Below, piece after piece: positions 45,066 to 54,811 of a stretch of 60,904 nt of DNA (the first letter of the stretch is position 1; each line of letters starts with the position of its first letter). A program made the translations under genes and the position numbers. Origin of the DNA: an uncultured Burkholderiales bacterium (GTDB lineage Bacteria; Pseudomonadota; Gammaproteobacteria; Burkholderiales; Burkholderiaceae_C); NCBI GenBank assembly GCA_937873395.1, contig CALMYH010000080.1, positions 1 through 60,904 on the forward strand. Direction: 5' to 3'. The notes under the pieces are model-generated. The model had not been told where the DNA came from. It made no database searches and saw nothing but the letters and a program-made list of their open reading frames with translations.

Positions 45066-46052
45066 ATGCACGCCTGGCTGTGCGAGAACCCCGTGGGCGT
45101 CGAGGCCCTGAGCTGGAAAGAACTGCCCACCCCCACGCCCGGCCCGGGCCAGGTGCTGATCCGCATCGAGGCGGCCAGCCTGAACTTTCCGGACCTGCTG
45201 ATCGTGCAGAACAAGTACCAGATGAAGCCGCCGCTGCCCTTCGTGCCGGGCTCGGAATACGCGGGCGTGGTCGAGGCGGTGGGCGAAGGGGTGACCCACG
45301 TGCAGCTCGGCCAGTCGGTGGCCTGCCTCAGTGGCACCGGCGGTTTCGGCACCCACACCCTGGCGCCGGCGGCCTTGTGCATGCCGCTGCCGCCCGGCTT
45401 TCCGCCGGTCGATGCCGCGGCCTTCATCATGATCTACGCCACCTCGTGGCACGCGCTGATGGACCGTGCCGCCCTGCAGCCAGGCGAGACCGTGCTGGTG
45501 CTGGGCGCGGCCGGCGGCGTGGGCACCGCGGCCATCCAGCTGGCCAAGGCCGCCGGCGCCCGCGTGATTGCCGCGGCCTCCAGCGACGAGAAGTGCGAGC
45601 TGTGCCGCCAGCAGGGGGCCGACGCCACCATCAACTACAGCGTGCACACGCCCGAGCAGGGCCTGCGCGACGAGATCAAGCGCCTGACCGACGGCAAGGG
45701 CCCGGACGTCATCTACGACCCGGTTGGCGGCGCCTTTGCCGAACCGGCCTTCCGCTCCATCGGCTGGCGCGGGCGCTACCTGGTGGTGGGTTTTGCCAGC
45801 GGCCCCATTCCCAGCCTGCCGCTGAACCTGACCCTGCTCAAGGGCGCCAGCATCGTCGGCGTCTTCTGGGGCGATTTCGCCCGCCGCGAACCCAAGGCCA
45901 ACGCCCAGATGATGCAGACCCTGGCCGGCCTGTACGCCAAAGGCCAGATCAAGCCCGTCATCGACCAGACCCTGCCCATGGCCGAGCTGAAACACGCCTA
46001 CGCCATCATGGGCTCGCGCGCCGTCAAGGGCAAGCTGGTGATGGTGAACTGA
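45066..46052 (+). CDS. NADPH:quinone oxidoreductase / zinc-type alcohol dehydrogenase-like protein
   Basis: The 328-aa MDR-family protein has the QOR N-terminus ([34 protein letters not shown]), the cofactor motif [20 protein letters not shown] and the end [19 protein letters not shown]. It lacks structural zinc Cys clusters, which points to the quinone-oxidoreductase branch. It reduces quinones or enones with NADPH; the substrate is unknown. AAGGAG precedes the ATG at 45066. It ends at the terminator next to the tRNA-His attachment site. Confidence 0.88.
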
Positions 46053-46104: not shown

Positions 46105-46153
46105 CTGGGGTGGCTGATGGGACTCGAACCCACGACAACAGGAATCACAATCC
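46105..46153. repeat. attL: 49-bp direct repeat, orphan 3' fragment of tRNA-His
   Basis: Identical over 49 bp to 54734-54782. It covers the tRNA-His sequence from the anticodon loop through the T-arm and acceptor to the CCA end, without the 5' half. The integrase gene begins 168 bp to its right. Confidence 0.95.
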
Positions 46154-46213
46154 CACAAAATAAGTATTCGCCAGAGTTGAGCCAAGTTGATAGAATCAAT
46201 GTAAATCAACAAC

Positions 46214-46302
46214 TTACAGACAACACAGGCCCTAGCAAGCCCGTCTGAGTGTTGATTGAAATGCACCAAAATTGAGCAATTCAGTCTGTAAAAAGTCTGT
46301 AA
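46214..46302. repeat. Integrase arm-type site candidates near attL
   Basis: The octamer GTCTGTAA occurs twice in direct orientation at 46284-46291 and 46295-46302 (11-bp period, about one helical turn) and once inverted at 46214-46221. The same tandem pair recurs beside attR. This fits arm-type binding sites of a tyrosine integrase. Confidence 0.6.
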
Positions 46303-46321
46303 AAGCTGAACGATTCTCAAC

Positions 46322-47797
46322 ATGGCACGACCGAGCAAGACCGCAGAGATTGACTACTCCCGAGCGCACGACCTGACGTATGGGCTTCTGGCCCGTGCTA
46401 CCTGCCCGCCTGAACGTCCGTTCGTGCTGCTCAAGGACACCGACAAGAAGGGGCTGCGCCTGCGCATCACCCAGGCCGGGGGCAAGCACTGGCAATTCGA
46501 AACCCGGCTGAAGTCGGGCAAGCTGTTTACCCGTGCGCTGGGTGAGTGGCCGACCATATCGATTGAAGAGGCCCGCCGCAAGGCGCACGACCTGCGAGGG
46601 CTGACGGAACAGGGCCTAGACCCCCGCGACCTTGAGCGCCAGCAGGCCGAAGCCGAGCAGGCCGAACGCGACCGGCTGGCCGCCGAAGCCGAAGCCAGCA
46701 AGGCCCGCGAAGCCCTGGACGCCCTGACCGTGGGGCAGGTGTGGGCCGCCTACATCGAAGAGCGCCGGCCGCACTGGGGCGAGCTGCACTGTCGTGACCA
46801 CATCATCAAGGCCGCCCCCGGTGGGCTGCCTTCCAAGCGCCGGGGAGCCGACAAGGATGCCAAGACCCGGCCCGGCCCGCTGGCCCCGTTGATGCCGCTC
46901 AAGCTGCGCGACCTGGACACCGCCACGATTGAACGGTGGGCCGCCACCGAGGGCAAGACCCGGCCATCATCGGCCCGGCTGGCGTGGCGACTGCTGACCG
47001 TGTTCCTGGGCTGGTGTGCCGAGCACCCGCAGTACCGCGCCATCCTGCCCGCTCAGAATCCAGCCAAGAGCCGCAAGGCGCGTGAAGCCCTGGGCAAGCC
47101 CGGCGTGAAGTCCGATGTGCTGACCCGCGAACAGTTGCCGGCATGGTTTGCCCAGGTGCGCCAGATTCAGAACCCCGTCATAGCCGCCGCTCTGCAAGTC
47201 ATGCTGCTGACCGGAGCAAGGCCCGGTGAAGTCATGTCCCTGCGCTGGGATGACCTGAACACCCAGTGGAAGGGCATCACCATCCGCGACAAGGTGGAGG
47301 GCAGCCGGGAAATACCCCTGACCCCCTACGTGGCCGCCCTGCTGGCCGCCCTGCCCCGCCGTAATCAGTGGGTGTTCTCAAGCGCCTACGCCCTGGACAT
47401 GAGCGCCGCGAACATCAAGCGCCGCGCCACCAAGGCCGCCAAGAAGGGCACCGACACGCCGCTGGGCGACGTGAAGAACCGCAGCGCCGAAGGCCGGTTG
47501 ACCATACCGAACGCACCGCACACACGCGCCTGCAAGGCTGCCGGCCTTGAGGGCCTGACGCTGCACGGGCTGCGCCGTTCGTTCGCCAGCCTGACCGAGT
47601 GGCTGGAAATACCGGCCGGCGTGGTGGCGCAGATTCAAGGCCACAAGCCCAGCGCGACAGCAGAGAAACACTACAAACGCCGCCCCCTGGACCTGCTGCG
47701 CCTGCACCATGAGCGCATCGAAGCCTGGGTGCTGGAACAGGCCGGGGTGAAGTTCGACGCGAAGGCAGAGCCGGCCCGGCTGTCCGTGGTGATGTAA
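46322..47797 (+). CDS. int: P4-type tyrosine integrase
   Basis: The 491-aa recombinase has an N-terminal arm-binding domain (DUF4102 type: LLKDTDKKGLRLRITQAGGK, GEWPTISIEEARRKAHDLRG), a long charged linker helix (100-135), a core-binding domain and the catalytic domain. Catalytic residues are R300 (LTGARPGEV), H415 and R418 (LHGLRRSFA), H441 (QGHK) and nucleophile Y451 (EKHYKRR). It should recombine the 49-bp att sites in tRNA-His. It lies at the usual place next to attL and reads away from it. Confidence 0.95.
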   Translation: MARPSKTAEIDYSRAHDLTYGLLARATCPPERPFVLLKDTDKKGLRLRITQAGGKHWQFETRLKSGKLFTRALGEWPTISIEEARRKAHDLRGLTEQGLDPRDLERQQAEAEQAERDRLAAEAEASKAREALDALTVGQVWAAYIEERRPHWGELHCRDHIIKAAPGGLPSKRRGADKDAKTRPGPLAPLMPLKLRDLDTATIERWAATEGKTRPSSARLAWRLLTVFLGWCAEHPQYRAILPAQNPAKSRKAREALGKPGVKSDVLTREQLPAWFAQVRQIQNPVIAAALQVMLLTGARPGEVMSLRWDDLNTQWKGITIRDKVEGSREIPLTPYVAALLAALPRRNQWVFSSAYALDMSAANIKRRATKAAKKGTDTPLGDVKNRSAEGRLTIPNAPHTRACKAAGLEGLTLHGLRRSFASLTEWLEIPAGVVAQIQGHKPSATAEKHYKRRPLDLLRLHHERIEAWVLEQAGVKFDAKAEPARLSVVM

Positions 47798-47898
47798 TCG
47801 AGTTCGCCCCAGCTAGGCCCGCTTCGAAACCGGGCCGAAGAGGCAGGCCCCCGACTGCCCTGCTGGTGGCCCTTCATCGGGGTTGCATCGGGGGATGC

Positions 47899-49077
47899 AT
47901 GGAAATGGGATTGATTGAGGCCGCCCGCTTGGCTGGCTTCAGGCCAGAGGATGGCTGGCCCACGACACTGACGCCTGAGCAGGTGTTGAGGCTGCAACAT
48001 GCCCGGCTGGGGATGCCGGTTAAGGACTTCAACGGGAGCCCGGCCGTCCGTGAGCTGCACACCCGCATGGGGCTTGCGATTCAGGCCGGGGTGCTCAAGC
48101 ACACCACCACCGAACGAGAAGAGCAGGTAGAGCCCAGCCGCCGCATCATCTCCAAGGGGATAGACGGGGGCCGCAGTTTCTTAGGTGGCACGCTGGGCAG
48201 TTTGCCCGTGGGGTACATGCAGCCGCCGAAGTTCAAGACGGTGAAAGTGCGCCACATCGCCGCCGCCGACTTCGCCGCCTGGCTGGCCGCGAACGTGATA
48301 GAGCCGAGCCCGTACACCAGCGCATGGTTCAAGGCTCTGGCCGTGAACACCGACCCGCGACGCATTGAACCGCCCGCACAGTGGAAGGCACAGACCGCGC
48401 AAGGTTTGCAGCGCTGCGACGACACCGACGCTGGCCGGCTGGTGCGCGTGGCCGACCTGGTGCAGTGGCTGATGAAGGTCCGCGTGCTGCCCTGTCGGGC
48501 CGCTGTCGAACTGGTGTGCAAGGCCCTTGAGCAGAGCCCCAGCGCTGCCGCTGGCTGGCTGTATCTGCTGACCAAAGCCGACTATGCCCAGCCCCTGCCG
48601 GCTGCACATCCGTTCTTCGTGGACACGTTCGGAGAGATGGAGGAAGACGACAAGGGGTTGCCGGGAGCCATCAAGCACATGCGCCAGCTCTGGGGTAGCA
48701 GGCAAGCGCCTGATGTTTATGTGCTTGGCCCCGCAAAGCGGAAAGACACAAGCCTAGACCCCCTGGCAATGCGCCTGGACGTGGCCCACCTGCTGTTCGA
48801 CTATGGCCGCCGCGTGGACCCAGCCGACCAGCAAGCCGCGCCGGCTGCGCCTGCCGAGAGTAAGGAACAGAGACAGGACAGACGATTGCAAGTGTGCATC
48901 GATGCCAACCTGCCAATGACGGAACGTGCCTTGCTTCGGCTGCCGGATGGTGTCGGAGCGCTTGCAGAGTTGGAGGGAGTGAAACGGCAAACCTTCACCG
49001 AGGATGTGAAGGCAGCGCTTCGACGGAAAGTCGAGAGAGAGCGCCCGAAGCCCAGGCTGGTGAAGCCGCCAAAGTGA
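47899..49077 (+). CDS. Large element protein of unknown function
   Basis: The 392-aa soluble protein has no signal peptide or membrane span. The N-terminal third (MEMGLIEAARLAGFRPEDGW) looks helical and could hold a helix-turn-helix. A central segment, VRHIAAADFAAWLAANVIEP, resembles short DNA-associated modules seen in other integrase-linked proteins, but I cannot name a family. The C-terminus is basic (RRKVERERPKPRLVKPPK). The ATG at 47899 has GGGGA upstream; a GTG at 47866 in frame is an alternative. Lying alone between integrase and operon, and closed by its own terminator at 49087, it could be cargo, an initiator or a regulator. Confidence 0.7.
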   Translation: MEMGLIEAARLAGFRPEDGWPTTLTPEQVLRLQHARLGMPVKDFNGSPAVRELHTRMGLAIQAGVLKHTTTEREEQVEPSRRIISKGIDGGRSFLGGTLGSLPVGYMQPPKFKTVKVRHIAAADFAAWLAANVIEPSPYTSAWFKALAVNTDPRRIEPPAQWKAQTAQGLQRCDDTDAGRLVRVADLVQWLMKVRVLPCRAAVELVCKALEQSPSAAAGWLYLLTKADYAQPLPAAHPFFVDTFGEMEEDDKGLPGAIKHMRQLWGSRQAPDVYVLGPAKRKDTSLDPLAMRLDVAHLLFDYGRRVDPADQQAAPAAPAESKEQRQDRRLQVCIDANLPMTERALLRLPDGVGALAELEGVKRQTFTEDVKAALRRKVERERPKPRLVKPPK

Positions 49078-49086
49078 CCCGACAAG

Positions 49087-49110
49087 CGCCTGCAACTTGC
49101 AGGCGTTTTT
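49087..49110 (+). terminator. Rho-independent terminator after the unknown element gene
   Basis: 8-bp stem CGCCTGCA/TGCAGGCG with a 3-nt loop followed by TTTTT, 10 bp past the stop at 49077. It separates the integrase/unknown unit from the replication operon. Confidence 0.85.
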
Positions 49111-49128
49111 CATAGATGGGCGACAACT

Positions 49129-49142
49129 TGCAGGCACCTGCA
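49129..49142. promoter_or_regulatory. Palindrome ahead of the replication operon, operator candidate
   Basis: TGCAGG-CA-CCTGCA lies in the 137-bp leader of the operon. Part of it repeats the terminator stem sequence (CAACTTGCAGGC at 49093 and 49124). It may bind the element's AlpA-like or HTH regulator; this is inferred from position and symmetry only. Confidence 0.35.
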
Positions 49143-49214
49143 TGGGTGACTACATCAACGTGAATCAGCGGCAATCCGTGGCAATGCACTACCGCAGAGC
49201 CTTGGAGAGCCGAC

Positions 49215-49460
49215 ATGACGTTGACCGTGATTCCTGCCCCCGCGCAGCACCGGGCACACGCCCACCACTTCCCACCCCTTGAGCTGGAAAGCCGGCCAGC
49301 CGTACCGACTGAGCAGGCCGCCCACTACCTGAACCGACGCCCGCAGACCCTGCGCTGGTGGGCCATGCGTGACGGTGCCGGCCCCATCCGGCCCTTGCGC
49401 GTGAATGGCCGCTTGGCCTGGCCGGTGTCCGAAATCCGCCGCGTGCTGGGGGTGGCCTGA
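49215..49460 (+). CDS. AlpA/excisionase-like MerR-type HTH protein
   Basis: The 81-aa protein has a winged-HTH core, PTEQAAHYLNRRPQTLRWWA, followed by the wing PIRPLRVNGRLAWPVSEIRR, the pattern of AlpA/Xis-type excisionases and MerR-like DNA-binding proteins. The N-terminal 28 residues look disordered. It is the first gene of the replication operon; its TGA overlaps the next ATG by one base (TGATG). Likely roles are excision directionality or operon control. Confidence 0.75.
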   Translation: MTLTVIPAPAQHRAHAHHFPPLELESRPAVPTEQAAHYLNRRPQTLRWWAMRDGAGPIRPLRVNGRLAWPVSEIRRVLGVA

Positions 49461-49546
49461 TGCTGGCCGCCGTGAATCGCTGGCTGCTGCGCCTCTGGTG
49501 CGCCAGCCCGAGCCGCTGGCGCTGGTTCAGGAGGGCAGCGAAATGA
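49460..49546 (+). CDS. 28-aa coupled small ORF, cationic amphipathic peptide
   Basis: The ATG at 49460 shares its A with the preceding stop, and its own TGA overlaps the following ATG (ATGA at 49543). The peptide, MLAAVNRWLLRLWCASPSRW then RWFRRAAK, has five Trp and seven Arg/Lys. Coupling on both sides argues for translation, if only to keep ribosomes moving. Function is unknown; it could also be a purely coupling device. Confidence 0.45.
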   Translation: MLAAVNRWLLRLWCASPSRWRWFRRAAK

Positions 49547-49866
49547 CCCAGCACCCCGAGCAACTGGCGCTGTTCGACCTGCCGCCCCTGACACCGACCT
49601 GGCCGCGCCGGGGTACTCTGGCCGACCGTGCGCTGGGGCTGCTGTTGGATGGCCGCAGCCTGGACCACCCAACGTTCGAAGCCCAGGCCGGAAGCTGGCG
49701 ACTGGCCGCCGTGGTGTTCGAACTGCGAGCGCTGGGCTGGCCGGTGCAGAGCACCGACCGACCTGCACCGACACCCGACTGCCCAGGCCGGTACATCGGC
49801 ATCTACCGCTTGAGCGCCCGCGACCTGGCCGCCCTGGTGGCCGTGCGTGGAGGTGCCCAGGCATGA
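49543..49866 (+). CDS. Small element protein, probable winged-helix domain
   Basis: The 107-aa protein has a short acidic N-terminus (EQLALFDLPPLTP) and one compact domain. TLADRALGLLLDGRSLDHPT, AQAGSWRLAAVVFELRALGW and CPGRYIGIYRLSARDLAALV suggest a winged helix of the type seen in phage replication or regulatory proteins (a helix pair followed by a beta-wing ending in Tyr-Arg-Leu). AGGAGG lies upstream of the ATG at 49543. Its last codons overlap the primase start by 4 bp. Confidence 0.65.
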   Translation: MTQHPEQLALFDLPPLTPTWPRRGTLADRALGLLLDGRSLDHPTFEAQAGSWRLAAVVFELRALGWPVQSTDRPAPTPDCPGRYIGIYRLSARDLAALVAVRGGAQA

Positions 49867-50723
49867 GCGCCCACCACCGCATCGAATGGGCAGCCCTGCC
49901 GCCTGGTTCGCACCGGCTGCGCTGCCCGGCCTGTGGCCGCGACCGCCGCGCCGACAAGACGCTGGGGGTGTCGGTTGACGCCACCGGGGCCGGCGTGGCG
50001 CACTGCTTCCGCTGCGCCTACGTGGAGACACACCGCCCTGGCCGTGAACCCCGAGCTGGCCGACCAGCCAGCCGGCCGCTGCCGCTGCCGACCGTTCAGG
50101 TTCAGCACCAGCACGACACCCTGAGCGCCCAGGGCCGCGCCCTGTGGCTGGCATCGCACCGCATCCTGCCGGGCACGCCGGCCGGGCACTACCTGACGAC
50201 GCGCCGCTGCGTGCTGCCGCCCGCATCTGGACACCTTCGCTGGCTGCCGGCCCATCGGCATCCGACCGGCCATGTCGGGCCGTGCATGGTGGCGCTGCTG
50301 ACCGACGCCCTGACGCGCCAGCCGCGCACCCTGCACTTCACCTGGGTGGCCGGTGGCCGCAAGGCCGACGTGCACCCGCCGCGCCTGCTGCTCAAGGGAC
50401 ACCGCAAGGCCGGGGCCGTGTGCCGCCTGTGGCCCGACGACTTCGTGTCGCATGGCCTGGGGGTGGCCGAAGGCATCGAAACCGCCTTGAGCCTGGCACA
50501 CGCATACACGCCCTGCTGGGCCTGTATCGACGCCGGCAACCTGTCCGAGCTGCCGGTGCTGGCCGGTGTCGAGGTGCTGGTGATTGCCCAAGACCGCGAT
50601 GCTGCCGGCGAGAAAGCCGCCAGCGCCTGCGCCGACCGCTGGGCTGGTGCTGGCCGTGAAGTGCTGGTGACGCGCCAGCAGGCCGGCGACCTGAACGATG
50701 TTGTTCAGGAGGTGGCCGCATGA
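49863..50723 (+). CDS. TOPRIM-domain primase with zinc ribbon
   Basis: In this 286-aa protein, C21, C24, C48 and C51 (CPACGRD ... CFRC) form a zinc ribbon. The middle carries basic residues, and the C-terminal TOPRIM domain has the catalytic Glu in VAEGIETALS (E203) and the DxD in VLVIAQDRDAAG (D244, D246). This is the domain set of small phage and plasmid primases and primase-helicase N-domains. It makes RNA primers for the element's replication. It overlaps both neighbours by 4 bp, and the helicase follows at once. Confidence 0.87.
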   Translation: MSAHHRIEWAALPPGSHRLRCPACGRDRRADKTLGVSVDATGAGVAHCFRCAYVETHRPGREPRAGRPASRPLPLPTVQVQHQHDTLSAQGRALWLASHRILPGTPAGHYLTTRRCVLPPASGHLRWLPAHRHPTGHVGPCMVALLTDALTRQPRTLHFTWVAGGRKADVHPPRLLLKGHRKAGAVCRLWPDDFVSHGLGVAEGIETALSLAHAYTPCWACIDAGNLSELPVLAGVEVLVIAQDRDAAGEKAASACADRWAGAGREVLVTRQQAGDLNDVVQEVAA

Positions 50724-51919
50724 GAGCCGAACGCGAAGCCATCGAACAGGCTCTGGCCGCTGCCGAACGCCGACGCCCACCGCCACCGGATGGCGTGCAA
50801 CTGGCCCGAGGCGACACGCTCAGTCCTGAACCTGTTCGCTGGCTCTGGCCGGGATGGCTGGCGCTGGGCAAGCTGGCAATTCTGGCCGGTGCACCTGGCA
50901 CCGGAAAGACCACCATTGCCTTGAGCATGGCCGCGACCGTGACGACCGGGGGCCTGTGGCCCGATGGCACACGCTGCCCAGCCGGCGACGTGCTCATATG
51001 GTCCGGCGAGGATGACCCAGCCGACACGCTGCTGCCGCGCCTGGTGGCTGCCGGTGCCGACCGAACCCGCGTGTTCTTCGTGGGCGACGTGGTGGAGGAA
51101 GGCCAGCGCCGGCCGTTCGACCCGGCCAGCGACACCGCCGCGCTACTGGCCGCCGCCCGCAAGCTGCCCGCGCTGCGCTACATCCTGGTTGACCCCGTGG
51201 TGTCGGCCGTGGCCGGCGACAGCCACAAGAACACCGAGGTTCGCCGGGGCTTGCAGCCGTTGGTGGACTTCGCCGCCGCCGCTGGCGCTGCCCTGGTGGG
51301 CATCACCCATTTTTCCAAGGGTGGGCAAGGGCAAGACCCAGCGCAACGTGTCACGGGCAGCATTGCCTTCACCGCCGTGGCCCGCGTGGTGCTGGTGGCC
51401 GCGAAGGTGAAAGACGACGAAGGCAACGAGCGCCGCATCCTGGCACGTTCGAAGTCCAACATCGGCCCCGATGAAGGCGGGTTCAGCTACTCGCTTGAAC
51501 AGTGCGAAGCGCTGCCGGGCATCTGGACCAGTCGCACGGTGTGGGGTGACGCCCTGGCCGGCAGCGCCCGCGAGCTGCTGGCCGAACCGGAAGAGAGCCG
51601 GGAGGCTGCCGGCCCATCCAGCGAGGCCGCCGACTTCCTGCGCGAACGCCTGGCGCTGGGCATGTGCCCGAGCAAGACGATTCAGACCGAAGCCGAAGAG
51701 GCTGGCATCGCCTGGCGAACGGTGCGCCGCGCCGCCGACAAGCTGGGGGTGGTCAAGCGCAAGGGCGGGATGAACGCCGGCTGGTATTGGAGCTTGCCCA
51801 GTGCCGAAGGTGTCCACAAACCCGCCGAAGAATCCGAAGAAGTCCACAAAAAAACCGTGGACAAGTTCGGCACCTTCGGGCCTGACGTGGACACCTTCGG
51901 GGAGGGTTCGCAGCCATGA
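50720..51919 (+). CDS. RepA-like AAA/RecA-fold helicase
   Basis: The 399-aa protein has Walker A GAPGTGKT (57-64), Walker B YILVDPVVSAV (D158) and the sensor-like ALVGITHFSKG, typical of the RSF1010 RepA / phage hexameric helicase group with RecA fold. A C-terminal winged-helix-like part (AEEAGIAWRTVRRAADKLGV) may bind DNA. Together with the TOPRIM primase just upstream it would form a replicative primase-helicase pair split over two genes. It overlaps both neighbours by 4 bp. Confidence 0.85.
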   Translation: MRAEREAIEQALAAAERRRPPPPDGVQLARGDTLSPEPVRWLWPGWLALGKLAILAGAPGTGKTTIALSMAATVTTGGLWPDGTRCPAGDVLIWSGEDDPADTLLPRLVAAGADRTRVFFVGDVVEEGQRRPFDPASDTAALLAAARKLPALRYILVDPVVSAVAGDSHKNTEVRRGLQPLVDFAAAAGAALVGITHFSKGGQGQDPAQRVTGSIAFTAVARVVLVAAKVKDDEGNERRILARSKSNIGPDEGGFSYSLEQCEALPGIWTSRTVWGDALAGSARELLAEPEESREAAGPSSEAADFLRERLALGMCPSKTIQTEAEEAGIAWRTVRRAADKLGVVKRKGGMNAGWYWSLPSAEGVHKPAEESEEVHKKTVDKFGTFGPDVDTFGEGSQP

Positions 51920-52851
51920 ACCAGCACCAGCCGGACCCGTTCGACGACCGTGTGGTGTGCACCGGCTGCTGGTTCCTGGTGGCCGACCGCCGCTGCCGCA
52001 ACTGGCAGGCCGCCCGCCTGTGCGGGCCTGAAGTCGGGGCCATCAAGACCTTGCCCCAGCGTTGCCCAGGCTTCGCCCCCCTGGCAACCGAACCCAAGAC
52101 CGAGAGCAGACCGAGCCCGACCGAGAACAGACCGAGCCCGACCGAGAACAGACCGAGCCCGACCAACCCATCCATTGAACATGAGGAACCCGACATGATT
52201 GTTTCCGAGAACGCCGGAGGTTCGACCTTCACCCCCTGCCCCGCTGGTTCGTACCTGGCCCGCTGCGTGCGCCTGGTGGACCTGGGCACCCAGCAAACCG
52301 AGTACCAAGGCGAGAGCAAGAGCGCCCACAAGGTGCTGCTGGCCTTCGAAATCCTGGACGCCGACACCCGCCGCGACGATGGCGAACCGTTCCTGCTGTC
52401 CAAGCGCTACACCCTGAGCCTTCACGAAAAGGCCGCCCTGCGCAAAGAGCTGGCTTCCTGGCGTGGCCGCGACTTCACACCCGAAGAGCTGAAGGGGTTC
52501 GACCTGCGCAACGTGCTGGGCAAAGAGTGCTTCATCTCCGTGGTGGAGAGCACCAAGGGCGACCGCACCTATTCGAACATCGCCAGCATCATGAAGCCGC
52601 CCAAGGGGATGCAGGCACCGGCCGGAGCCGAGCCGCTGGTTTACTGGGACATGAGCGCCGACGCGCCCGACTGGGCCGGGCTGAACATGCTGCACCCCAA
52701 GCTGATAGAGCAGGTGGAAGCCAGCCCCGAGTTCAAGCGCCTGAAGCCGCCCAAGCGCGTGCAGGTGCCGGCCCGAGCACCAGCGCCAGCACCCGAGCCC
52801 GATGCATCCGGGTTCGACGACCTGCCCGACTTCGAAGAGCCTGCTTTCTGA
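51916..52851 (+). CDS. Putative ssDNA-binding (DUF669-like) protein fused to a Cys-rich N-terminal domain; internal start at 52195
   Basis: The 311-aa frame has three parts. Residues 1-55 carry a small Cys-rich domain (C15, C18, C27, C36, C50). Residues about 61-90 are a tandem PSPTENR-type linker encoded by 21-bp repeats. Residues 94-311 form a domain starting MIVSENAGGSTFTPCPAGSY with the layout of phage DUF669/ssDNA-binding proteins (SYLARCVRLVDLG, HKVLLAFEIL, IASIMKPPKGMQ) and an acidic tail (FDDLPDFEEPAF) typical of SSBs. The internal ATG at 52195 has its own GAGGAA 6 nt upstream, so a separate 218-aa product is likely. Confidence 0.7.
   Translation: MNQHQPDPFDDRVVCTGCWFLVADRRCRNWQAARLCGPEVGAIKTLPQRCPGFAPLATEPKTESRPSPTENRPSPTENRPSPTNPSIEHEEPDMIVSENAGGSTFTPCPAGSYLARCVRLVDLGTQQTEYQGESKSAHKVLLAFEILDADTRRDDGEPFLLSKRYTLSLHEKAALRKELASWRGRDFTPEELKGFDLRNVLGKECFISVVESTKGDRTYSNIASIMKPPKGMQAPAGAEPLVYWDMSADAPDWAGLNMLHPKLIEQVEASPEFKRLKPPKRVQVPARAPAPAPEPDASGFDDLPDFEEPAF
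52087..52163. repeat. 21-bp tandem repeats encoding a PSPTENR linker
   Basis: About three copies of a unit of type GACCGAGAACAGACCGAGCCC in frame with the coding sequence, giving the peptide repeat PSPTENR. It joins the Cys-rich domain to the ssDNA-binding domain and could vary in copy number. Confidence 0.8.
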
Positions 52852-52860
52852 GGTGGCCCC

Positions 52861-53589
52861 ATGAACATCTACCTGGACACCGAAACCATACCGAGCCAGC
52901 ACCCCGACGCCCTGGCCGAAGTCCGTTCAACGCTGAAGCCACCGGGCACGCTCAAAAAGCCCGAGAGCATCGCCGCCTGGTGGGCCACCGAGGCAGAGGC
53001 CGCCGCCGTGGAAGCCTGGCGACGGCAGGCCCTGGACGGTGGCACCGCTGGCGAGCTGGCATCGATTGCAGTGTGTGGCGACGACACACCCGGCTGGGTG
53101 CGCTGCCGGGCACCCGGTGAGAGCGAAGCCGACCTGCTGCACGCCTTCGGCCAGCAGGTGCAGCGCATGGTGGAGGATGCCGCCGTGACCGGGCCGGACG
53201 GCAGGGCCTGGTCGGTCGGTGAACCGTTCTTCATCGCCCACAATGCGCCGTTCGACCTGGGCTTTTTGTGGCGACGGTGCCGCGTGTTGGGTGTGCGCCT
53301 GCCCTTCGCCCTGCCGGGGCCGATGGCAAGGACTGGCCGTGACTACGCCGACACGATGCTGGCATGGGCCGGCTACGGTGGCCGGGTGAGCCTGGACACG
53401 CTGTGTCGCGCCCTGGGCATCACCAGCCCCAAGACCGAGGGCATGGACGGTGCCCAGGTGTTCGACCGCTGGCTGGCCGGCGACGTGGCCGCTATCGAGC
53501 GCTACAACCTGGCCGACGCCCTGGCCGTTCGTGAGGTGTGGCACCGCCTGCAAGGCATCACCGCCCCGAGCATGGAGGGCCAGCCATGA
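52861..53589 (+). CDS. Element DEDDy 3'-5' exonuclease (PolB-exonuclease-like)
   Basis: The 242-aa protein has motif I IYLDTETIP (D6, E8), motif II FIAHNAPFDLGFL (D132) and motif III YNLAD (Y215, D219), the DEDDy set. It has no polymerase domain. It starts 9 bp after the ssDNA-binding gene and overlaps the nuclease gene by 4 bp. It probably proofreads or processes ends during element replication or recombination. It belongs to the same broad group as the chromosomal exonuclease at 41383-42168. Confidence 0.82.
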   Translation: MNIYLDTETIPSQHPDALAEVRSTLKPPGTLKKPESIAAWWATEAEAAAVEAWRRQALDGGTAGELASIAVCGDDTPGWVRCRAPGESEADLLHAFGQQVQRMVEDAAVTGPDGRAWSVGEPFFIAHNAPFDLGFLWRRCRVLGVRLPFALPGPMARTGRDYADTMLAWAGYGGRVSLDTLCRALGITSPKTEGMDGAQVFDRWLAGDVAAIERYNLADALAVREVWHRLQGITAPSMEGQP

Positions 53590-53984
53590 GCGCCATGCAA
53601 CGCAACAAAGGCAAGGCCGGTGAACGCGAGCTGGCCGCGCTGCTGTACCGCCTGACCGGGCACCAAGTGCGCCGCCGTGTGCGCCAGCATGAGGCCGACG
53701 ACGACCTGGTGGGGCTGCCGGGCTGGTCCGTGGAGTGCAAGCGCTACCGCAGCGCAGCGCCGGCCGATGTGGTGGACTGGTGGGCGCAGACCGTAAGCCA
53801 AGCCTGCCGCACTGGCTCCTGGCCGGTGCTGTTCTACCGCCTGGACCGCCAGCCCTGGCGCTGCGTGTGGCCTGCTGACCTGCACACCGGCCAGCGCCCG
53901 GTGTCGGGCAACTTCAGCGACACCTTGACCAGCGACCCCTTGACCTGGTGGCGCATGTGCAAGGGGCTGGGCGGTATTCAGTAA
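53586..53984 (+). CDS. PD-(D/E)XK nuclease, Hjc-like Holliday junction resolvase
   Basis: The 132-aa protein starts MSAMQRNKGKAGERELAALL and has the core E13, the acidic cluster D38-D40 and E50-x-K52 (WSVECKRY), the classic Hjc/PD-(D/E)XK arrangement with an N-terminal RNKGxxGE signature. It would resolve four-way junctions formed during element replication, or act as an endonuclease at the nearby dyad. It is the last gene of the coupled operon. Confidence 0.8.
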   Translation: MSAMQRNKGKAGERELAALLYRLTGHQVRRRVRQHEADDDLVGLPGWSVECKRYRSAAPADVVDWWAQTVSQACRTGSWPVLFYRLDRQPWRCVWPADLHTGQRPVSGNFSDTLTSDPLTWWRMCKGLGGIQ

Positions 53985-54019
53985 ACCCCCCTAGGGCACA
54001 CCGCTGAACAGTCCGACAC

Positions 54020-54231
54020 CGCGCCGCGAATGACCCGCGACCGGCAGGGCCGGGAAGAACCTACCTGTGGGGGGTGGTAGGTGCTCCCGACACAAAGCTG
54101 GTGCGGGTGGTTCGGCCCCCGTTCGTGCGCCAGCCGCTGGCACCGGGAATTGTCAACGCCTGGTCGGCCACCCCCACCCCCCACAGGTAGGTTCTTCCGG
54201 GCATATCCGAATGCGGGTCATTCCCGGCCCG
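54020..54231. repeat. Long nested inverted repeat; candidate replication origin or structured RNA
   Basis: A perfect 25-bp inverted repeat (54053-54077 and 54174-54198) is nested in a perfect 11-bp pair (54028-54038 and 54213-54223). Both share the centre 54125.5, with equal 14-bp gaps, and weaker pairing extends to 54020/54231. The inner loop (54078-54173) holds a further small hairpin at 54129-54141. It lies in the 291-bp gap between the nuclease gene and the HTH gene and contains no credible ORF. Confidence 0.85.
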
Positions 54232-54275
54232 TGCGCCCTGTAGTCAGTGCCCTGCAAACATAGTGAATAGAACCG

Positions 54276-54530
54276 ATGCCAAGAGCACCCAGCAAGAGCG
54301 CCCGCACAGAGAGAAACACCATGATGAAGGCAGACCGAGCCCGTGGCCTGACAGTGCGGGAGGTGGCCGCCAGATACGGTGTTTCCCTGGCCCTGGCCCA
54401 TCGCGTGGTGTCTGACGTTCACATCATGCTGCCGAACCGCTGGCACCGGGCACGCCAGCGCGAAACACCCGCGCCCTACACGTTCAGGCTTCACGGGCTG
54501 ATGCAGCCCCGAGCCAGCACCACCGCCTGA
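54276..54530 (+). CDS. Small HTH protein, resolvase/homeodomain-like
   Basis: The 84-aa protein has a Hin-type helix-turn-helix, DRARGLTVREVAARYGVSLA followed by LAHRVVSDV, with basic flanks. No catalytic domain is present. The first ATG is at 54276; an ATG at 54321 preceded by AGAGAG is an alternative. It is next to the long dyad, so it may bind it as an initiator or copy-control protein; this is inferred from position. Confidence 0.65.
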   Translation: MPRAPSKSARTERNTMMKADRARGLTVREVAARYGVSLALAHRVVSDVHIMLPNRWHRARQRETPAPYTFRLHGLMQPRASTTA

Positions 54531-54655
54531 ACCATGCCGCTGTGCTGGGTGGGGGGGTGTCAAAAGTCGGGCAGCCTTGCCACCAAGACCGCCCGCCTAC
54601 CTTCGTGCGCAGCGCCGCAATATCCGACCGGGGGAGGGTTCGAAACCCTGCACCG

Positions 54656-54677
54656 CAGTCTGTAAAAAGTCTGTAAA
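54656..54677. repeat. Integrase arm-type site candidates near attR
   Basis: A 22-bp block identical to 46282-46303 with two direct GTCTGTAA octamers 11 bp apart (54658-54665 and 54669-54676). It lies 56 bp inside attR. Confidence 0.65.
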
Positions 54678-54691
54678 CGCCAGAAACGGGA

Positions 54692-54722
54692 AAAGCCCGC
54701 TACCGAATAGATAGCGGGCTTT
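54692..54722 (-). terminator. Element-borne terminator for tRNA-His
   Basis: 11-bp stem AAAGCCCGCTA/TAGCGGGCTTT with a 9-nt loop and a T-run on the minus strand. It stands 12 bp past the tRNA-His 3' end and lies inside the element, so it replaces the ancestral terminator now stranded at 46068-46099. Confidence 0.85.
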
Positions 54723-54733
54723 CCTTGTATTTA

Positions 54734-54782
54734 CTGGGGTGGCTGATGGGACTCGAACCCACGACAACAGGAATCACAATCC
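54734..54782. repeat. attR: 49-bp direct repeat within intact tRNA-His
   Basis: Identical to attL at 46105-46153. It spans the tRNA from anticodon loop to CCA, so integration regenerates a complete tRNA gene. Confidence 0.95.
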
Positions 54783-54811
54783 TGGACTCTACCAACTGAG
54801 CTACAGCCACC
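54735..54811 (-). tRNA. tRNA-His (GTG)
   Basis: Cloverleaf on the minus strand: 7-bp acceptor GTGGCTG/CAGCCAC with the extra G-1 typical of tRNA-His, D-arm TAGCTCAGTTGGTAGAG, anticodon loop TTGTGAT with GTG, T-arm with GGTTCGAGTCC, and encoded CCA. It carries the element's integration site. Confidence 0.96.

Follow-up and report, generated by a model that had tools for sequence, protein, structure and literature searches.

What is a small integrated element that carries an integrase and replication genes but no recognisable gene for packaging or transfer, and how might it move? The question is raised by a 60,904-nt stretch of an uncultured Burkholderiales bacterium (contig CALMYH010000080.1, GCA_937873395.1; henceforth the window), in which 8.6 kb lie between two identical 49-bp direct repeats, 46105–46153 and 54734–54782. 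The right-hand copy forms the 3′ portion of a tRNA-His gene that is itself intact (54735–54810, minus strand), so that the perfect attachment (att) repeats in tRNA-His that an earlier note had described from this DNA are indeed there. That note proposed a replicon that can excise and is mobilised by a helper, or else a new satellite class. The former is the best-supported reading: the element is probably a phage satellite, still intact, from the Gram-negative lineage of phage-inducible chromosomal islands (PICIs), packaged by a helper phage. What favours this is that the att and arm-like sites are intact, that some relatives show the site uninterrupted, that the helicase gene holds iterons and that homologues lie in satellite-like elements. 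The latter suggestion is not supported, as anatomy and origin layout match the Gram-negative PICIs as described in PMC6092414.

Anatomy of the element

Ten genes lie between the att copies, all of them unbroken and on the plus strand, with four junctions overlapping by 4 bp. We scanned the proteins of the element against Pfam, PHROGs and NCBIfam (E ≤ 1) and with PADLOC. The features on which the argument turns are the following (TRF, Tandem Repeats Finder; HTH, helix-turn-helix; OB, oligonucleotide/oligosaccharide-binding; SSB, single-stranded DNA-binding protein).

46105–46153, no strand: attL, 49-bp copy of the 3′ part of tRNA-His, identical to 54734–54782
46282–46303, plus: likely integrase arm site, tandem 11-bp repeat CAGTCTGTAAAAAGTCTGTAAA (TRF)
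46322–47797, plus: tyrosine integrase, 491 aa (PF00589, Phage_integrase; PF13356, Arm-DNA-bind_3; phrog_1)
49215–49460, plus: AlpA-like HTH regulator/excisionase (HTH_17, E 0.003, below the curated cut-off; phrog_66, E 0.0026)
49863–50723, plus: TOPRIM primase with zinc-finger-like cysteines (PF13362, Toprim_3; PF23639, DUF7146; phrog_510)
50720–51919, plus: RepA-type AAA_25 helicase (PF13481, 132 bits; Walker A GAPGTGKT)
51804–51900, no strand: putative replication origin, iterons at 51804 and 51834 (direct) and at 51857 and 51887 (inverted)
51916–52851, plus: NGO0469-family OB-fold (SSB-like) protein (NF046043, 224 bits), core probably 52195–52851
52861–53589, plus: DEDDy 3′–5′ exonuclease (PF10108, above cut-off)
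53586–53984, plus: PDDEXK nuclease, likely Holliday-junction resolvase (PF24608, PDDEXK_15; phrog_244)
54656–54677, plus: second likely integrase arm site, CAGTCTGTAAAAAGTCTGTAAA, the same 22 bp as at the left end
54734–54782, no strand: attR, inside the intact tRNA-His

The set of integrase, primase, RepA-type helicase, exonuclease and nuclease recognised in the earlier note is confirmed by these Pfam and PHROGs matches. Its AlpA-like protein is matched by HTH_17 and phrog_66, the former only below the curated cut-off, and shares 63% and 62% identity with AlpA-like proteins adjoining integrases in loci L005/L078 and L145, respectively. None of the ten proteins has a capsid, portal, terminase, tail, lysis or relaxase family match in Pfam, PHROGs or NCBIfam. 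This leaves standing the statement of the note, namely that packaging and transfer genes are unrecognisable.

Boundaries and insertion site

The 22-bp tandem of CAGTCTGTAAAAAGTCTGTAAA, which had escaped the earlier note, is found in identical form just within both ends of the element, and its 9-bp core AGTCTGTAA occurs at only four places when both strands of the 60.9 kb window are searched; the paired tandems would fit arm-type integrase sites. The oxidoreductase gene on the left flank (45066–46052) was matched in 54 of 60 genomes of the genus (E ≤ 1e-80), and the best 29 relative loci were analysed. It is followed by tRNA-His after 51–67 bp in four of them, which keep 47–48 of the 49 att bases, and after 523–1208 bp in five; in the other 20, tRNA-His was not found in the sequence stretch after the oxidoreductase, three of these stretches being short. 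Longer stretches, read for 19 relative loci, contained tRNA-His in six (as far as 13.9 kb off) and not in 13. The uninterrupted site thus occurs in relatives, yet is not universal in the genus.

Genome G054 (locus L145) holds another element at the same tRNA-His, with an att copy matching at 48 of 49 bases, an integrase 49% identical to that of the window and the AlpA-like relative mentioned above. Gram-negative PICIs are characterised by an att site never used by prophages, and at this tRNA-His the integrase and AlpA element of G054 is the only other one seen. Besides these two genes, this element (L145:1055–15935) has a gene for a 1082-aa protein and a resolvase-like gene (by eye). A tandem of TGGCTACACAG stands beside its integrase, and also in L078, in the place where the window element has its arm repeat.

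A putative origin within the helicase gene

The final 116 bp of the helicase gene contain CCGAAGGTGTCCAC at 51804 and CCGAAGAAGTCCAC at 51834, followed by two inverted copies, at 51857 and 51887. Within either set the spacing is 30 bp, and the two sets flank an A-tract spacer, AAAAAAACC (read by eye). We take these iterons, which the earlier note did not report, as a putative replication origin. The repeat score at the helicase 3′ end is 17, whereas 200 shuffles gave at most 5, and it ranks ninth among 427 windows of the element. A survey of repeats drew on 42 loci with this helicase (24 from IMG/VR, 17 genome loci and the window), of which two were dropped. Of the 40 retained, 28 have the densest repeats of their whole locus at the stop of the helicase gene, against 1.45 expected, and 34 reach a repeat score of at least 12 there. 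The spacer was unusually AT-rich in 16 of the 32 loci measured, so this part of the origin layout is just half supported across relatives. A helicase with a built-in repeat cluster offers a simple handle for finding satellites that lack capsid genes.

Relatives of the helicase

Among 300 genomes of the order, including the element's own, 37 match the helicase (E ≤ 0.001); with the own genome set aside, 18 match at E ≤ 2e-25, and 17 of these were read in about 10–20 kb of context. IMG/VR yielded 29 helicase loci, 24 of them strong, at 48–65% identity. Helicases of this similarity sit in small elements, which are either like the capsid-forming PICIs (cfPICIs), with capsid genes after the helicase, or without capsid genes at other tRNAs. 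By PHROGs, locus L048 has genes for major head, protease, portal, TerS, TerL and adaptor. Capsid, protease and portal genes of the L048 type follow the helicase in 16 of the 24 strong IMG/VR loci, while two (L043 and L049) have none of these matches. In the remaining six of the 24 only a capsid-like match was found, a strong one in L044 and weak ones in L041, L045, L050, L054 and L058, and L050 has weak HNH and TerL matches too. From plain bacterial genomes only one of the 17 loci (L086) has the module, with only that capsid type sought and some contigs short. If the contrast between the two sources stems from the way in which viral contigs are selected, satellites of this lineage that have no capsid genes are undercounted in this bacterial order.

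Against 50,697 phage records the helicase gave 53 matches, all in the band below 60% identity, the 15 listed being 27–31% identical; 72,556 plasmid records gave six, all in the same band, the best 47% over 189 aa. With matches so weak among phages and so few among plasmids, satellites are favoured over either as the home of this helicase.

The compact order of helicase, OB-fold protein, exonuclease and resolvase stands beside tmRNA in L079, where the last gene is TerS-like, and at tRNA-Ser in L087, in two genomes of another genus; the same arrangement with a distant helicase lies at tRNA-Lys in L096, from a Rhodocyclaceae metagenome-assembled genome. TerS-like genes were seen in two relatives, L079 and L084. 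A small TubC_N-like docking-domain protein follows the helicase in L079, L081–L084, L087, L088 and L090 (a PF18563 match in L087, by eye in the others), and in L079 it is fused to the OB-fold protein. A 10.7 kb element with the same helicase type (L085:5399–16086) has 49-bp repeats in tRNA-Arg and carries a 1162-aa tape-measure-like gene (by eye), with no L048-type capsid match.

The recombination cassette

What remains unusual about the element is its cassette of SSB-like protein, exonuclease and resolvase. The first of these had been called DUF669-like; it has no Pfam match at E ≤ 1, but NCBIfam assigns it to the NGO0469 family (224 bits against a cut-off of 75), and its predicted model has an OB fold, with PrgE as best match in the PDB. 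Its true start is probably 52195, since GAGGA precedes the ATG there and most homologues begin nearby. Residues D6, E8, D132, Y215 and D219 of the exonuclease are invariant across seven aligned sequences, and all motifs sought in the nuclease, primase (CxxC, EGIE and DRDAAG) and helicase are present. The PDDEXK nuclease is likely a Holliday-junction resolvase, and in relatives at other tRNA or tmRNA sites a RuvC-like protein fills its slot. With PDDEXK and RuvC exchanged in one slot, what junction resolution contributes to the replication and packaging of satellites can be tested directly.

Comparison with known satellites

As PMC6092414 describes them, Gram-negative PICIs (EcCICFT073 and kin) share with the window element an integrase, an AlpA-type regulator and an adjoining primase and replication initiator, together with transcription in one direction from int, the direction of all ten genes here. 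Their origin lies in the 3′ end of the initiator gene, with two iteron sets either side of an AT-rich stretch, and the sequence of the helicase end predicts the same here. Structural and lytic genes are absent from both, in our case at E ≤ 1. The organisation into integrase, replication module and master regulator is found again in the window element, with a weak match for the regulator. They differ in that the window element has the OB-fold, exonuclease and resolvase cassette and that no interference or packaging-redirecting gene was recognised in it.

Elements of the cfPICI type (L048 and kin; the class is named in PMC11389934) have the same front of int, AlpA, primase and RepA helicase, the last 48–65% identical, and in most of them a repeat cluster in the helicase 3′ end. 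Their helicase is followed by capsid, protease, portal, TerS and TerL genes, none of which is found in the window element, whose recombination cassette sits in their place. P4-like satellites have a fused alpha primase-helicase plus psu, sid and delta genes. In the window, primase and helicase are separate genes, and the psu, sid and delta families, not sought one by one, are not among the Pfam and PHROGs matches of its proteins.

The phage-inducible chromosomal minimalist islands (PICMIs) described in PMC10803314 are likewise minimal satellites with int, AlpA and primase and no capsid remodelling, but have a DUF3987/DUF5906 primase and a site beside fis, rather than a TOPRIM primase and AAA_25 helicase in tRNA-His. 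The description of Pseudomonas AH14b (PMC4936722) gives an integrase, an AlpA-like regulator and a topo-primase (293 aa, Toprim_3) followed by a helicase, and reports no terminase. AH14b differs in its size (16.8 kb), its 600-aa helicase and its homologues of two helper genes, tail assembly protein I and a lipoprotein. According to these sources, terS is present in "some, but not all" Gram-negative PICIs and EcCICFT073 relies on the TerS and cos of its helper (PMC6092414), PICMIs are packaged as a concatemer (PMC10803314), and the authors of AH14b concluded that it is packed in helper capsids (PMC4936722). With EcCICFT073, PICMIs and AH14b as precedents, the want of packaging genes is not new by itself.

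Proposed mode of action and alternatives

Anatomy, insertion site and sequence relations, all read from DNA, suggest how such a satellite could act. An incoming helper phage would switch the AlpA-like regulator on and the integrase would excise the element as a circle, upon which primase and helicase would begin replication at the helicase-borne iterons. The OB-fold protein, 3′–5′ exonuclease and resolvase may then process single strands and junctions, and in doing so turn the replication products into concatemers or resolve them. Finally, the helper terminase would package the DNA into helper particles via a putative cos- or pac-like site. More tentatively, this branch of the PICIs may have shed its capsid and packaging genes, with a swappable cassette (OB-fold protein, exonuclease and PDDEXK or RuvC nuclease) making the concatemers itself, so that the element could be loaded by any helper that packages by headful or cos and has a compatible site; the inverted repeat at 54020–54231 would then be a target of the resolvase or of packaging.

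Several observations weigh against a helper-packaged satellite. No helper was found, the own genome being without a match to PF04860, PF05136 or PF03237 (three families with working controls), and a helper may be external to it. No terS, cos or pac was identified in the element; the AlpA match is below threshold; and 8.6 kb falls short of the 12–15 kb that PMC6092414 gives as typical, though not absolute, for Gram-negative PICIs. The densest repeats lie elsewhere than the helicase stop in 12 of the 40 loci surveyed, and the window itself is not among the other 28 because its 21-bp tandems (52098–52164) score 46, above the helicase end. The cassette, moreover, also stands on contig L064 beside a minor tail gene (phrog_1924), TerS (phrog_57) and a TerL-sized gene, and part of the element could therefore derive from a prophage.

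The last point, together with the NGO0469-family relatives in 39 phage records, would suit a prophage remnant that kept its early region (integrase, replication and recombination) and lost its late region, being now immobile or moving by chance. We consider this unlikely, given that every gene is open with the motifs sought in place, that the two ends share the same att copy and the same arm-like repeat, that the compact arrangement recurs at tmRNA, tRNA-Ser and, with another helicase, tRNA-Lys, and that the listed phage matches of the helicase are so distant. Still less probable is an integrative plasmid-like replicon spread by conjugation in trans (with an oriT only) or by transformation. 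Such a replicon might need no more for its autonomy than primase, RepA helicase and iterons, and the family scans recognised no packaging gene; they gave no relaxase match either, plasmid records hardly ever match the helicase, and relatives carry TerS-like genes or capsid modules. That the element stands for a truly new class of satellites, with a recombination cassette of its own as the defining trait, seems to us just as improbable: among the papers listed by our literature searches there was no satellite described with this cassette, which occurs together with this helicase in three genomes (own, G108 and G153) among the loci examined, but the members seen are few, the cassette genes occur in phages too, and front half, origin layout and gene order are those of PICIs in the account of PMC6092414. 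The element is best filed as an unusual, compact satellite of the PICI lineage, for which we infer packaging by a helper.

Other features and a second element

Five further features complete the element.

47866–49077, plus: ORF403, unknown, candidate regulator; its start may be 47905
49498–49866, plus: ORF122, small unknown protein ahead of the primase
52098–52164, plus: 21-bp tandem repeat, 3.2 copies, in the N-terminal extension of the OB-fold reading frame (TRF)
54020–54231, no strand: large inverted repeat with arms of 58 nt that are 83% complementary
54276–54530, plus: small HTH protein, last gene (weak phrog_836, E 0.002; phrog_23746, E 0.0008)

ORF403 has no match in Pfam, PHROGs, NCBIfam or PADLOC. 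Its C-terminal part is 38% identical over 73 aa to a protein sited upstream of AlpA in L078, which makes it a candidate regulator. ORF122, without a family match in the Pfam, PHROGs and NCBIfam scans, is 34% identical over 83 aa to a 126-aa protein of L096 that likewise sits ahead of the replication gene. The last genes of the two loci are also similar (BLASTP E 8e-5, single comparison). PADLOC gave four weak matches, falling on the helicase and the exonuclease. The 21-bp tandems begin about 180 bp past the helicase stop and could be part of the origin or a mere linker. The inverted repeat, between the PDDEXK nuclease and the last gene, is a further addition to the earlier note; its DNA fold has a z of −8.0, and the core 16-mer occurs genome-wide in just these two exact copies.

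The own genome has a second small element near tRNA-Arg on contig C6 (L078:6609–12573), which begins at a tRNA fragment (CAT-type, by eye). It contains an integrase 65% identical to that of the window, a HicA/HicB-like pair (by eye), an ORF403-like protein, the AlpA-like protein (63%) and a DUF3987 protein. Its set of integrase, AlpA and DUF3987 matches the PICMI model, without the fis site.

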